34,008 nt of DNA from a virus: positions 1-34,008 of the IMG/VR virus record IMGVR_UViG_3300037963_000405; one strand, written 5' to 3'. Within the stretch, counting starts at the first letter, position 1, and each line of letters opens with the position of its first letter. Shown piece by piece: positions 6,541 through 33,010 of this stretch. Below the pieces are notes generated by a model. That model was not told where the DNA came from. It did not search any database and saw only the letters and a program-made list of their open reading frames with translations. Both the position numbers and the translations under genes were made by a program.

Positions 6541-6541
6541 T

Positions 6542-6549
6542 TATCTTTG
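6542..6549 (+). promoter_or_regulatory. Candidate Bacteroidota -7 promoter element
   Basis: TATCTTTG followed by C matches the Bacteroidota -7 consensus TAnnTTTG. It lies immediately after the stop of the lysis cassette. No TTG sits at the expected distance upstream, so the -33 box is weak or absent. If used, transcription would begin near 6555 and meet the terminator hairpin at 6611, which would give an RNA of about 90 bases. Confidence 0.4.
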
Positions 6550-6610
6550 CAAACAATTAAGATGGGGTTATCCTGTCTGGTTTCTAGTTTACAGTTTATA
6601 GTTATCAATA

Positions 6611-6644
6611 GTGAGGTGTTTATAACATCTCACTTTTGGTTTTT
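6611..6644 (+). terminator. Rho-independent terminator after the lysis cassette
   Basis: GTGAGGTG (6611-6618) pairs with CATCTCAC (6626-6633) around a 7-base loop, giving eight pairs with one G-U, followed by TTTTGGTTTTT. It separates the late structural/lysis genes from the early region that starts at 6693. Confidence 0.75.
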
Positions 6645-7984: not shown

Positions 7985-8488
7985 ATGGGAAAAATGAAAC
8001 AAATGTATGAACAACAAACAAATATTAATAACTTAAACAACAATGAAATGAGTAGAAAATCAAACAAGCAAGAACAAGTAGAAGTAACTCCTGAAACAAG
8101 AGAGGATGCTCTAAGAAGATTATTTAAAGAAAACAATCTTGTCAAAGAAGATGTATATAAAGACAAGAGAGGTTTTGTAATCATTACTAGGTCAGGTATA
8201 GATAAAATTGTAAGTAAACAAGGAATAACTGTTGCTTATGATGTAGTTACATTAGACTTAGATAAGAATCATGTAGTCTTAAAAGCAGTTGCAACAATGA
8301 AGGTTGGTAAGAACGAAGTAAGAAACATGATGAGTTTCGGTGAGGCATCTGATGCTAATTTAATGGGAGGAGGTAAAAAGTTTCCTGTTGCTATGGCTGA
8401 GAAGAGAGCAATGTCAAGAGTTGTACTTAAATTGGCTGGTTTCTATGAGCAAGGTAATGTCTTTGGTCAGGATGAGATAGTTGATTAA
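7985..8488 (+). CDS. Early protein, possible single-strand annealing protein
   Basis: This 167-residue protein has a low-complexity Asn/Gln-rich start (1-35), so the true start may be the ATG at 8048 (Met22). The folded part runs from about 45 to 160: RGFVIITRSGIDKI, a strand-rich middle, then FPVAMAEKRAMSRVVLKLAG and a C-terminal acidic FGQDEIVD. The helix with AEKRA-R-VLKL resembles that of ERF/Rad52-like annealing proteins of Bacteroidota phages as I remember them. Context supports recombination, since an SSB-like protein and nucleases are in the same operon. The assignment is tentative. The stop overlaps the next start by one base. Confidence 0.4.
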   Translation: MGKMKQMYEQQTNINNLNNNEMSRKSNKQEQVEVTPETREDALRRLFKENNLVKEDVYKDKRGFVIITRSGIDKIVSKQGITVAYDVVTLDLDKNHVVLKAVATMKVGKNEVRNMMSFGEASDANLMGGGKKFPVAMAEKRAMSRVVLKLAGFYEQGNVFGQDEIVD

Positions 8489-8742
8489 TGAATGATTGGT
8501 TAGATGATATACTTGATGGTGAGCCTACTGGTATTACAGATACACAGTGGCTTATCATTGAGTCTAACATTCATAGAACCGCTTTGCCTCCACATTATGT
8601 AGATGATGTTATGGAAAGATTAAACGACTTAACAGAACTAGAGGCAGAGGAAATAATAAAACAAATAAACGAAAACAAAATAGAAACAGACACTAGAAAG
8701 CAATGGTTGAAAATGCTAAAAGATGGAGTGTTTGATAAGTAA
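8488..8742 (+). CDS. Small acidic helical early protein, unknown
   Basis: This 84-residue protein is rich in Asp, Glu, Ile and Leu and predicted to be mostly helical (MERLNDLTELEAEEIIKQIN). It starts at a one-base overlap with the possible annealing protein, so the two are probably made together and may interact. Its last base is the first base of a long inverted repeat (8742-8897). I do not recognise the family. Confidence 0.45.
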   Translation: MNDWLDDILDGEPTGITDTQWLIIESNIHRTALPPHYVDDVMERLNDLTELEAEEIIKQINENKIETDTRKQWLKMLKDGVFDK

Positions 8743-8897
8743 AATTATATGAGTGGAGTTATAATCATTATTAATTATTAACTGAGCGGTTAGACTTTGT
8801 AAAGATTATGCCCTTATTGACAAACAACAACAATTAAAATAAATTAACTTAAAAAATTAATTTACAACAACGGAGGGGTTCTTCACTCATATAATTT
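8742..8897 (+). ncRNA. Structured RNA candidate, three-way junction with 17-bp closing stem
   Basis: Bases 8742-8758 pair with 8881-8897 over 17 positions (16 Watson-Crick, one G-U). Inside, 8760-8766 pairs with 8804-8810 (7 bp, one G-U) and encloses a small hairpin 8778-8782/8789-8793. Then 8811-8815 (CCCTT) pairs with 8873-8877 (GAGGG) and encloses an A/T hairpin 8841-8847/8857-8863. The helices abut with 1, 0 and 3 unpaired bases, the geometry of a compact three-way junction. G/C-rich patches in an otherwise A/T-rich gap fall in the helices and one hairpin loop. The structure ends 9 bases before the ATG at 8907, so a cis-regulatory leader of the replication genes or a processed small RNA are the main options. 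I do not recognise a known class. Confidence 0.6.
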
Positions 8898-8906
8898 ATT
8901 ATAGAT

Positions 8907-9149
8907 ATGACAAATAAATATTCATTAGATAAAATTAGAAAATCAAGAAATGAGTTTGAAGCATTGCTTAGAATTTATGGTATATCTAATTTAAGGCTTT
9001 GTAAAATACTTGAGGTTAATTATGCAACAAGTAAAAAGTTTATAGAAGAGCCAACAACTATGAGGTTTATACACGCTAAAAGATTAGCAGATAGCATTGG
9101 ATTAACTATACAAGACATCATTGATACAGTAGTGTACGATATAAATTAA
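8907..9149 (+). CDS. Small helix-turn-helix DNA-binding protein
   Basis: This 80-residue protein looks like a Cro/C1-type HTH: NLRLCKILEVNYATSKKFIEE has the pattern of helix 2, turn and recognition helix, followed by MRFIHAKRLADSIGLTIQDI as the closing helices. It would bind DNA, probably as a dimer, and control early transcription or replication. It is the first gene downstream of the structured RNA at 8742-8897, which could be either its regulator or its target. No integrase is present, so a lysogeny repressor role is not favoured. Confidence 0.6.
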   Translation: MTNKYSLDKIRKSRNEFEALLRIYGISNLRLCKILEVNYATSKKFIEEPTTMRFIHAKRLADSIGLTIQDIIDTVVYDIN

Positions 9150-9160
9150 AATATAAAAAT

Positions 9161-9601
9161 ATGAAAAGAAGAAGAGTAAGATTTAGCCAGTATTATGACA
9201 ATATAATATTAGAAGAAATATCAAAAATTTATGACGTAGAAAGAGAAAGAATTTTTTTAGGCAGTAGAACTAAGAACATAATCTATGCAAAGCGTATGTA
9301 TATATTTGTATTGAGAAATGTTTTTTATCTAACATTAATGGAGATAGCAGAGTTAACTAATATGCACCATGCTTCTGTTATACATCATGATAGAAAGTTT
9401 CAGTTCTTTTACGAGAATTATTCTAAAGACCAACAAGCGTTTAAGCAAATAGAAAACAGAATAATAGAAGTAGAAGTAGATGAAGAAATTATTGCTTTAG
9501 AAAGTAAAAAGAAACAAATAGAAGAATCATTAACCAAATTATATTTAATTAAAACACAAAAAAATGAAAGAGAAAAAAGAGAAAATTTATTTACCGAGTA
9601 G
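9161..9601 (+). CDS. DnaA domain IV-like DNA-binding protein
   Basis: Residues 15-80 of this 146-residue protein follow DnaA domain IV. There is an N-terminal helix (ILEEISKIYDVERERIF), a basic stretch (SRTKNIIYAKRMYIFVLR) like the basic loop, and TLMEIAELTNMHHASVIHHDRKF, which matches the DnaA signature in which the HASVIHH segment corresponds to DHTTVLHA. The C-terminal 60 residues form a Lys/Glu-rich helix. No ATPase domain is present, so it can bind DNA but not open it by itself. It probably recruits or competes with host DnaA at a phage origin. Confidence 0.7.
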   Translation: MKRRRVRFSQYYDNIILEEISKIYDVERERIFLGSRTKNIIYAKRMYIFVLRNVFYLTLMEIAELTNMHHASVIHHDRKFQFFYENYSKDQQAFKQIENRIIEVEVDEEIIALESKKKQIEESLTKLYLIKTQKNEREKRENLFTE

Positions 9602-9827
9602 TATAAAAAACATTACTACACAATATGGAAGTATGTTAGTAGCAAACTTTAAAGTAGATGACTTACAAGCAAACTCAAAGAATGGCTGGGTGTCTATGGT
9701 TATATCAGAGAGAAGAGAGCCATCTGAAAAAGGTGCTACACACTATGCTTATGTAAATGATTACAAACCACAAGAGAATACAAAACCTGCTGCAAAACAA
9801 ACAGCAGATGATGATTTACCATTCTAA
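9564..9827 (+). CDS. Short single-stranded DNA-binding (SSB-like) protein
   Basis: This 87-residue protein has a short strand-rich body (YGSMLVANFKVDDLQ, GWVSMVISERRE, THYAYVNDYK) of the size of a minimal OB-type domain and ends in a Pro/Ala/Lys linker plus DDDLPF. That acidic hydrophobic tip is the hallmark by which SSB proteins contact partners. Its start lies 38 bases inside the previous gene, preceded by an A-run leader. A role in coating ssDNA during replication and annealing is inferred. Confidence 0.65.
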   Translation: MKEKKEKIYLPSSIKNITTQYGSMLVANFKVDDLQANSKNGWVSMVISERREPSEKGATHYAYVNDYKPQENTKPAAKQTADDDLPF

Positions 9828-15651: not shown

Positions 15652-15680
15652 AAGAGTCTATTTATATAGGCTCTTTTTTT
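15652..15680 (+). terminator. Strong rho-independent terminator ending the small-gene block
   Basis: AAGAGTCTA (15652-15660) pairs with TATAGGCTCTT over nine positions (right arm 15667-15675, one G-U) around a 6-base loop, and is followed by a run of seven T (15674-15680). It closes the transcript from 13034-13066 and insulates the terminase region. Confidence 0.85.
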
Positions 15681-16542: not shown

Positions 16543-16958
16543 TGGGTGAAGAAAAAAAGTTAGGAGAAGAGGCAAGGAAAAAGAGACCTCAACTTGGAAA
16601 GATAGATGAGAACTACAATAACACACCTAAATCTTTGCAACCAAAAAACCATGAAGTAAGGCAAGTGGCTAAGATGACTAGGAAGTCATTGGCATATGCA
16701 CTAGAAGGACAACCAGTAAAAATTAAGATGGCATTAGATATATTGTTTGATGAAGACCCTCGTGCCTACATAGATGCAATAGCAAAACTAATGAACTATG
16801 CTATACCTAAACTACAATCAACAGAAATCAAAAAAGACACTGATACCAAAATTGAAATAAAATTAAATGAAGGTGCAACTCTTGAAGATATTAAAAATCA
16901 AATAAGAGGTCTTGATGATGCAGAAGATATTGACTTTACAGAACTAGATGAAGAATAA
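16542..16958 (+). CDS. Terminase small subunit-like protein
   Basis: This 138-residue protein is charged and helical, with VAKMTRKSLAYALEGQPVKI and KMALDILFDEDPRAYIDAIA, and an acidic C-terminal tail (DDAEDIDFTELDEE). It lies directly upstream of and overlaps by 11 bases the large terminase gene, the usual place of the DNA-recognising small subunit. No sequence motif is fully diagnostic, so the call is from position, size and helical, acidic-tailed layout. Confidence 0.6.
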   Translation: MGEEKKLGEEARKKRPQLGKIDENYNNTPKSLQPKNHEVRQVAKMTRKSLAYALEGQPVKIKMALDILFDEDPRAYIDAIAKLMNYAIPKLQSTEIKKDTDTKIEIKLNEGATLEDIKNQIRGLDDAEDIDFTELDEE

Positions 16959-18390
16959 AAAACTTTTAAAGTTTGCACTCAAAAAGAAACTTTGTGAGAT
17001 GAGTTTTTATGAGTTCTTTAAACAGGCATGGCACGTTGTAGAACCATCAGTACCTCTATCTACTAATTGGCATCATAAATATATTTGCGATATACTACAA
17101 GCAGAGTGTGAAAGAATCATTGCACAAAAACCAAAAACAAAAGACATAATCATTAACGTACCCTTTCGTAGTACAAAGTCATTAATAGTTACAGTTATGT
17201 TTCCAGTATGGGCTTGGATAAAATCACCAAAACTTAGATTTATAACCTCATCATATTCTGCAACACTATCTATTGAATTAGCAACAAAGTCAAGGGATAT
17301 AATATTTAGCGATTGGTTTAAAGCAAGATGGAGTGATGTTTTTTTTATTAAGAAAGACCAAAACCTAAAAGAGAGATATGAGAATAATCATATTGGAATG
17401 AGAAGAGCAACCTCTGTTGGTGGTACTGTTACTGGACAGGGTGGAGACTTTCTTATTGTTGATGACCCCCTATCACCACAAATGGCAAACTCTGCAACTG
17501 AAAGAGAGAACGCTAATGAATGGTATAGGACAACATTCTACTCAAGACTTAACCAAGCAGACATTGGAGTAAGAATTATAATTATGCAGCGAGTACATGA
17601 AGATGACTTAAGTGGATTTTTACTTGATAGAGAAACAAGAACTAAATATAAACACATTTGCATACCAGCAACAAATGAAGATGGAAATATCAAACCAAAA
17701 TCATTAGTTCAATTTTATAACAAAGAAAGTGGACTGTTTTGGCCAGATAGATTTAGTAAAGAAGTTTTAAATGATTATAAAAGTGCTTTAGGTAGTTATG
17801 GCTATGCTGGACAACTACAACAAACACCAACACCCCTAGATAGTGGTATGATACGCAAAGATTGGTTTAAAATAGATAGATATAGAGTAGAAGAAGCAAC
17901 AGTTAACTTTGTTATTGACCCTGCATATACTGCAAATCAAAAAAATGACCCCTCAGCACTACTAGCATATACCTATAAAAACAATAAATGGCAGATAATA
18001 GATTGTGTAAATGTGCATAAAGAGTTTCCAGAACTGGTAAAGTTTATACCACAATGGGTAAAAAAGAATGGTTATACACCAAAAAGCAGAATATATGTAG
18101 AGCCAAAAGCATCAGGAAAGTCTATAGTTCAAACGTTAATTAGAGAAACTGGACTAAATGTTAAAGAAGATAAGCCGCCAACTAAAGATAAAGTAGCAAG
18201 AGTAAGTGATATTAGTGCATCTTTAGAGAGTGGTAGGGTAAGTTTGTTAAATGGCGACTGGAATAGAGAGTTTTTAGACCAACTAACTAAATTTCCAGCA
18301 GCAAAGCATGATGATATGGTAGATTGCTTAGTTATGGCAGTAAATAAGGAGATTTGGAGTGGAAATGGCAAGATAGTGTACTTTAGTTAA
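16948..18390 (+). CDS. Terminase large subunit
   Basis: This 480-residue protein is the packaging motor. The ATPase half shows a Walker A-like NVPFRSTKS at 70-78, a QxxR-type SYSATLS segment at 102-108 and Walker B FLIVDD at 168-173. The C-terminal RNase H-like nuclease half shows FVIDPAYT with Asp324, VEPKASGKS with Glu385 and KHDDMVDCL with Asp455/456. These are the motifs of TerL families with the Terminase_6C type nuclease. The size is normal, and no intein or frameshift is visible. Confidence 0.92.
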   Translation: MKNKKLLKFALKKKLCEMSFYEFFKQAWHVVEPSVPLSTNWHHKYICDILQAECERIIAQKPKTKDIIINVPFRSTKSLIVTVMFPVWAWIKSPKLRFITSSYSATLSIELATKSRDIIFSDWFKARWSDVFFIKKDQNLKERYENNHIGMRRATSVGGTVTGQGGDFLIVDDPLSPQMANSATERENANEWYRTTFYSRLNQADIGVRIIIMQRVHEDDLSGFLLDRETRTKYKHICIPATNEDGNIKPKSLVQFYNKESGLFWPDRFSKEVLNDYKSALGSYGYAGQLQQTPTPLDSGMIRKDWFKIDRYRVEEATVNFVIDPAYTANQKNDPSALLAYTYKNNKWQIIDCVNVHKEFPELVKFIPQWVKKNGYTPKSRIYVEPKASGKSIVQTLIRETGLNVKEDKPPTKDKVARVSDISASLESGRVSLLNGDWNREFLDQLTKFPAAKHDDMVDCLVMAVNKEIWSGNGKIVYFS

Positions 18391-32935: not shown

Positions 32936-32950
32936 TGACAATGTAATAAT

Positions 32951-32974
32951 AGAGGAGGTGTAAAAGCCTCCTCT
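32951..32974 (+). terminator. Hairpin after the capsid gene, likely partial terminator
   Basis: AGAGGAGG (32951-32958) pairs perfectly with CCTCCTCT (32967-32974) around an 8-base loop. It is followed by TTAATTACTTTTAATT rather than a clean T run, so it may slow transcription or protect the capsid mRNA 3' end instead of fully stopping it. Confidence 0.6.
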
Positions 32975-33010
32975 TAATTACTTTTAATTAACAATAAAAA
33001 CAATAATAAA

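Follow-up and report, generated by a model that had tools for sequence, protein, structure and literature searches.

Which role does the structured stretch in front of a small HTH gene in this viral DNA play, and is it peculiar to this one locus? A first-pass annotation of the window, i.e. the whole stretch of 34,008 nt analysed here, had described it as a compact three-way-junction RNA of no recognised class and had considered it a riboswitch-like or autoregulatory leader of the HTH gene.

The computed fold of the + strand reproduced this architecture at exactly the positions that the annotation had given for the closing stem and the inner helices. The closing stem P1 comprises 17 bp (8742..8758 paired with 8881..8897). 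Inside it are P2 (8760..8766 with 8804..8810), which encloses the hairpin P3 (8778..8793, UUAACU-GAGC-GGUUAG), and P4 (8811..8815 with 8873..8877), the base helix of a third arm. The junction linkers of 1, 0 and 3 bases were also recovered in the MFE fold. The third arm holds an A-rich single-stranded motif, UUGACAAACAACAAC (8817..8831), and an A/U-only hairpin, P5 (8840..8864, with 8840-8847 paired to 8857-8864). The MFE of 8742-8897 is -31.9 kcal/mol, compared with a mean of -17.86 kcal/mol (sd 3.1) for dinucleotide-shuffled sequences (z -4.53; none of 200 shuffles was as good), and the suspicion that the packing exceeds chance was therefore justified.

The element fills the space between two genes on the + strand. 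P1 shares its first base with the end of the stop codon (8740-8742) of an 84-aa gene with no assigned function (8488..8742), and P1 ends 9 bases before the start codon of the HTH gene (8907..9149; 80 aa, Cro/C1 type, HTH_26, E 1e-4). The next gene encodes a DnaA domain IV-like protein (Bac_DnaA_C, E 2.6e-9). The annotated gene context is thus borne out for these two genes; the product of 9564-9827, which had been called SSB-like as well, gave no Pfam or PHROGs match, and we take it to be SSB-like from its acidic DDDLPF tail.

We then asked whether the RNA belongs to a known class. Searches with Rfam 15 at the gathering score yielded no match in the window, in agreement with the annotation, and none in ten other loci of the family described below. 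In e-value mode the window stretch gave one chance-level match (14.3 bits), locus L257 gave 11 weak unrelated matches (the best scoring 23.1 bits where the cut-off is 50) and locus L041 gave none. ARAGORN found no tRNA or tmRNA in the window. Among the papers listed on structured RNAs of marine and Bacteroidetes phages, on noncoding RNA of flavophages, on flavobacterial small RNA and on the core letters, none was recognised as describing the family. Structured RNA encoded by phages is as such already known; judged by these searches, the present family is not in Rfam. It shares with the orphan RNA motifs in Rfam a conserved structure derived from intergenic comparison and the lack of an assigned function, but differs from them in that no Rfam 15 family reached the gathering score in the window or in the ten other loci.

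The comparison started from proteins of viral contigs that are related to the HTH protein; 80 of the 136 such relatives were taken. Diverged copies of the element emerged from a nucleotide search of the fetched loci; some lie between the HTH and the DnaA-like gene, others several genes upstream or in still other places. A pattern derived from the common core then returned at least 120 stretches in viral contigs, from which 115 distinct copies were extracted by script; nine of these are apparently false or incomplete, and the others follow one plan. A long P1 of free sequence is followed by UUA or a variant of it in an internal loop, the short P2, and a large asymmetric loop that contains an A/U-rich stretch, the small P3 with GC ending its loop, and ACUUUG; P2', a short linker and P1' complete the element. 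A covariance model built from 51 aligned copies matched the window only once, at the window copy (E 1.9e-6), and matched 92 of 100 pattern-scan loci, one marginally (L220, E 0.096), and 23 of 55 further loci. When the pattern-scan, HTH-relative and further loci are combined, the family is present in at least 148 distinct viral contigs, a count that omits L220 and two 28-bit matches (L051 and L053). The comparisons come mostly from contig fragments. The window RNA is, by sequence and predicted fold, one member of a wider structured RNA family, which goes beyond the view of the first-pass annotation, and what the members have in common is a conserved RNA of about 75-155 nt read on the gene-sense strand.

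The most conserved part of the family is a core with the consensus GCnGUUAUACUUUG, which is nearly constant in the alignments, although its letters were partly fixed by the search pattern. In the window the core is GCGGUUAGACUUUG (8786..8799), with the core letters GUUAGACUUUG. A second scan used a pattern without GUUAUACUUUG and gave 14 model-confirmed copies in 46 new loci (L388-L433); UAUACUUUG was intact in nine of them and present as a near variant in the other five. The core was also considered as a flavobacterial sigma-A promoter. This candidate was rejected: the flavobacterial -7 consensus is given as TAnnTTTG in PMC9723704, and TATACTTTG has three bases or one base, not two, between TA and TTTG.

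For the analysis of covariation two alignments of short copies were used. Alignment A1, from which the covariance model was built, was made with plain MAFFT and holds 51 of 55 copies after filtering by score, loop length and an id list and after removal of near-duplicates. Alignment A2 contains 100 chosen loci (95 distinct) fitted to the covariance model, a procedure which favours the structure. In A2, changes on both sides were seen in 16 of 20 pairs, and the covariation score was 0.556; shuffled alignments averaged 0.211 (sd 0.009), and none of 500 reached the observed value. The paired positions were able to pair in 94.6% of the cells, whereas structures slid along the alignment reached only 46-58%. 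A1 agrees, with two-sided changes in 15 of 20 pairs (nine of ten in P1 and all six in P2). Across the 95 distinct copies the covariation of P1 was assessed on its inner ten pairs, and all six family pairs of P2 vary on both sides. In A2 the four pairs of P3 show no variation at all; covariation hence has nothing to say on P3, nor on the core, which hardly varies.

The direction of the wobble changes distinguishes between the strands. Read on the gene-sense strand, P1 contains 72 G-U cells versus 9 A-C cells and P2 contains 30 versus 11. Since G-U is favoured over A-C, folding of this strand as RNA is favoured, and a DNA palindrome or cruciform is disfavoured by the same asymmetry. From the covariation and the wobble bias, the family is best described as a structured RNA and not as a chance hairpin or a DNA palindrome. 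A mobile DNA element with inverted-repeat ends was set aside too: P1 has no constant sequence, and it covaries. The presence and absence of the element at different junctions is nevertheless real, and the element may have moved by some route.

The three-way junction, after which the first-pass annotation had named the structure, is not what defines the family. Most copies were found to lack the third arm. The long copies that carry it were excluded from A1 and A2 and aligned separately (alignment A3, 16 of 17 copies, including that of the window); in these the extra arm is inserted between P2' and P1'. Its base helix, P4, varies in sequence among the copies. On average, matched arms scored 15.7, compared with 11.1 for arms swapped between copies, and 19 of 240 swaps, which include swaps between close relatives, reached the matched mean. 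RNAalifold recovered P4 from A3 with two-sided changes at five of six positions. It also paired the 5' strand of P2 with the 3' strand of P3 instead of P2', an arrangement that gains no support from the covariation of P2 in the short copies. The motif UUGAUAAACAACAA is conserved inside the third arm of the long copies, the A-rich stretch of the window being conserved among the 16 aligned ones, and several have a self-complementary stretch resembling P5 (judged by eye). As P4 covaries in the long copies but is absent from most copies, the three-way junction is real in the window and optional in the family. Covariation, by which the annotation had proposed to judge the three helices, thus speaks for P1 and P2 and, less strongly, for the third arm of the long copies.

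If the RNA were a riboswitch or an autoregulatory leader of the HTH gene, it should accompany this gene. It does lie just upstream of it in the window and in four contigs (L003-L006, two identical and two about 91% identical over the element). In the other 76 of the 80 HTH loci fetched, taken from 136 relatives, it is not directly before the HTH gene; these relatives carry it after the HTH gene, at unrelated junctions or not at all. Empty sites exist at the very same junctions: in one relative (L027) the 84-aa gene abuts the HTH gene, and the gap between the HTH and DnaA-like genes measures 10-11 nt in the window and in L030, L079 and L018, whereas L009 and L026 carry the element there. No replacement element was recognised in four relatives without the RNA. 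The 9 nt between P1 and the start codon in the window moreover leave little room for a switching platform. The varied neighbours and positions make a leader specific for the HTH gene unlikely, and we regard this part of the annotation as practically refuted. Nor did we find a constant association with any other gene, as in a riboswitch or the leader of a single gene; the downstream genes are diverse.

The neighbourhood was assessed for 106 of the 115 copies (eight copies judged false and one incomplete copy were omitted; near-duplicates, among them the window excerpt, are still included). At least 25 single-linkage protein clusters flank the element on each side. Some of the neighbours are replication- or recombination-like, such as DnaA-like proteins, a replication initiator and a Holliday junction resolvase, and further neighbour genes are presumably replication or recombination genes as well. 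The surrounding coding sequence is mostly co-directional with the element in 105 of the 106 copies. Over all 106, the median distance from the nearest preceding stop codon to the element is 5 nt, and that from its end to the following start is 25 nt.

The number of copies was determined in 48 records. Of these, 42 (15-84 kb) had been picked as known carriers, and each of them gave one and only one match at E 0.01; the element was missing from the other six. All six belong to the 17 records among the 48 that are related to the window by the HTH protein or the 84-aa neighbour; the element is hence dispensable in that group. A single copy often situated near replication-like genes could indicate a replication origin of the phage or a primer RNA. 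Both the six relatives of the window that do without it and the lack of a GC-skew switch at the element in the window argue against this function, which we consider very improbable.

A further feature is reminiscent of transcription termination. A run of at least five U within -5 to +20 of the end of P1 was found in 75 of 100 short copies. In the stretch from +20 to +45 such a run occurred in 1 of 100, and upstream in 8 of 98. The element resembles intrinsic (Rho-independent) terminators in this succession of stem and U-run and in its usual place just after a stop codon. Unlike them it is capped by a conserved domain, about 50 nt long, that includes a covarying stem; the U-run is missing from 25 of 100 copies and from the window copy, and the next gene usually starts about 25 nt on. 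Termination is therefore not universal in the family, and the missing U-run of the window copy is the main fact against reading the element as a terminator. Moreover, a consensus promoter was found within 350 nt downstream in only 7 of 100 loci, so that strong termination would silence the next genes. With the next gene following at once and usually lacking a consensus promoter, any termination must be partial or regulated.

Seven loci (L166, L221, L228, L247, L254, L266 and L421) have a promoter-like site, TTG-N17-23-TAnnTTTG, within 350 nt after the element. There the element could end one transcription unit before the next.

Upstream of the element, a consensus flavobacterial-type promoter was present within 2.5 kb in 29 of 52 loci. 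At control positions it was found in 2 of 10 (-5 kb), 7 of 29 (-2.5 kb), 20 of 66 (+2.5 kb), 6 of 32 (+5 kb) and 7 of 16 loci (+7.5 kb). The enrichment is modest and the related loci are not independent of each other, so that it is suggestive only.

The explanation we tentatively prefer, on the grounds of comparative sequence data, is that the RNA forms part of the early transcript, is read by a factor, and either terminates transcription partially or is processed. It would be transcribed with the early genes and would act on the early transcript overall instead of on one neighbour gene. P1, with its U-run in most short copies, would constitute a partial terminator or else a 3'-end or processing signal, and the near-constant loop core would be read by a factor. 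This factor would more likely come from the host than from the phage, since phages that differ in genome size and in the genes beside the element have the same core; a nearly constant core amid changing neighbours points to a fixed partner. Binding of the factor would set the amount of transcription that passes the element, or the fate of the released RNA. In the clade of the window, where the U-run is missing, the outcome would be processing or protein binding and not intrinsic termination.

The element could also be a simpler signal for the processing or stability of the mRNA, e.g. with a nuclease site in the long P1, that separates early messages. The free sequence of P1 and the usual position right after a stop codon would suit such a signal. 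A pure processing signal would not need a near-constant core, however, and several copies per genome would be expected where each of the 42 carrier records holds exactly one; we think this explanation improbable.

A close rival, in our estimate nearly equal to a factor-read element of the early transcript, is a trans-acting small RNA of the phage. It would be cut from the early transcript or terminated within it, its core would bind a host protein, RNA polymerase or target RNAs, and the neighbouring genes would be irrelevant. One copy per carrier record, many different neighbours, the nearly constant loop sequence, the presence or absence at different junctions and a U-run like that of small RNA terminators in 75 of 100 copies would all be understandable for such an RNA. 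It is less easily explained that the element nearly always lies between genes of the same direction, in most cases immediately behind a stop codon, and that only 6 of 100 loci have a consensus promoter within 400 nt upstream.

An RNA that acts in cis on the polymerase has a precedent in the put RNA of HK022, a lambdoid phage. According to PMC9378689, put RNA works alone by direct contact with the polymerase, and it is likewise a structured phage RNA in early transcripts without a phage protein partner; the likeness to our element concerns a possible mode of action alone. A processive antitermination RNA of this type would bind RNA polymerase and let it pass later terminators of the early operon. 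Besides the precedent, the single copy per carrier record, the sense orientation, the lack of a specific neighbour and the location some way into the operon at part of the loci would agree with it. HK022 put belongs to a different host group, and the U-run at the end of most short copies is not expected in a suppressor of termination. In addition, we found no terminator-like site on the + strand between the element of the window and position 15,652, and the one at 6610-6634 lies upstream of the element. Antitermination of the put type is for these reasons unlikely.

The carriers of the family point to flavobacterial hosts. The closest relative of the terminase encoded in the window is that of Croceibacter phage P2559Y from seawater (46%), and for a gene adjacent to another copy, 49 of the 50 records with a relative are Flavobacterium or Tenacibaculum phages. 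Judged by these proteins the hosts are probably Flavobacteriia, and a marine origin is likely. Eight cultured flavophages were searched: Tenacibaculum phage JQ, Flavobacterium phages lillamy9-1 and tooticki6-1, Croceibacter phages P2559Y and P2559S, and Cellulophaga phages phi40:1, phi17:1 and phi18:3. None of them gave a convincing match, the best one (E 0.04) lying within a structural gene. Two DNA stretches of the window had no match among 50,697 phage records, nor had the DnaA-like protein among the phage records; a short copy matched seven of them, none over 80% of its length.

Among 84,980 genomes of cellular species the exact pattern occurred in 79 stretches, of which one is a clear member (L347, 60.3 bits); the others had E values of at least 0.0065 or no match. 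The clear member lies on a 29-kb contig (PBGL02000003.1) of a Euryarchaeota MAG, SP3063, and this contig may be a mis-binned phage. In flavobacterial genomes 0 of 299 and 0 of 296 matched, a weak negative, as the search had no positive control and scored only a few candidates in each genome. An antisense target of the core was sought in eight host genomes and rejected as evidence: it was matched in seven of the eight, yet five or more of the nine places coincide with the pattern matches by which those genomes had been selected. The element appears to be a feature of phages.

RNA families with good support that occur only in phages, in a single copy per genome, and lack any Rfam relative are, to our knowledge, uncommon. 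The family may represent a new class of phage RNA, i.e. a movable module, present in a single copy in flavobacterial phages that are otherwise dissimilar, which would use its near-constant GCnGUUAUACUUUG core to capture a single conserved machine of the host (RNA polymerase, the ribosome or an RNA-binding protein) and thereby reprogram early infection, although we hold this broader view to be rather doubtful. With short synthetic RNAs the regulation of early infection in uncultivated Bacteroidota phages becomes directly testable.

Three other structures were noted in the window. Just before the exonuclease gene, positions 6541-6640 contain a promoter-like box TATCTTTG, a small hairpin, a linker and the terminator-like hairpin with T-run at 6610-6634 mentioned above. 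A similar arrangement is present in gaps of seven related genomes, and the region may be a leader attenuator or a small RNA of about 90 nt belonging to an early promoter. On the + strand a terminator-like hairpin with a T-run (15652-15675) is situated upstream of the terminase gene (16948-18390) and perhaps marks the end of the early region. Near the right end, a gene gap at 32936-33010 harbours a strong hairpin, GAGGAGG...CCTCCTC, which is probably an intergenic processing or terminator hairpin; a similar hairpin with its flanks was seen in seven related genomes.
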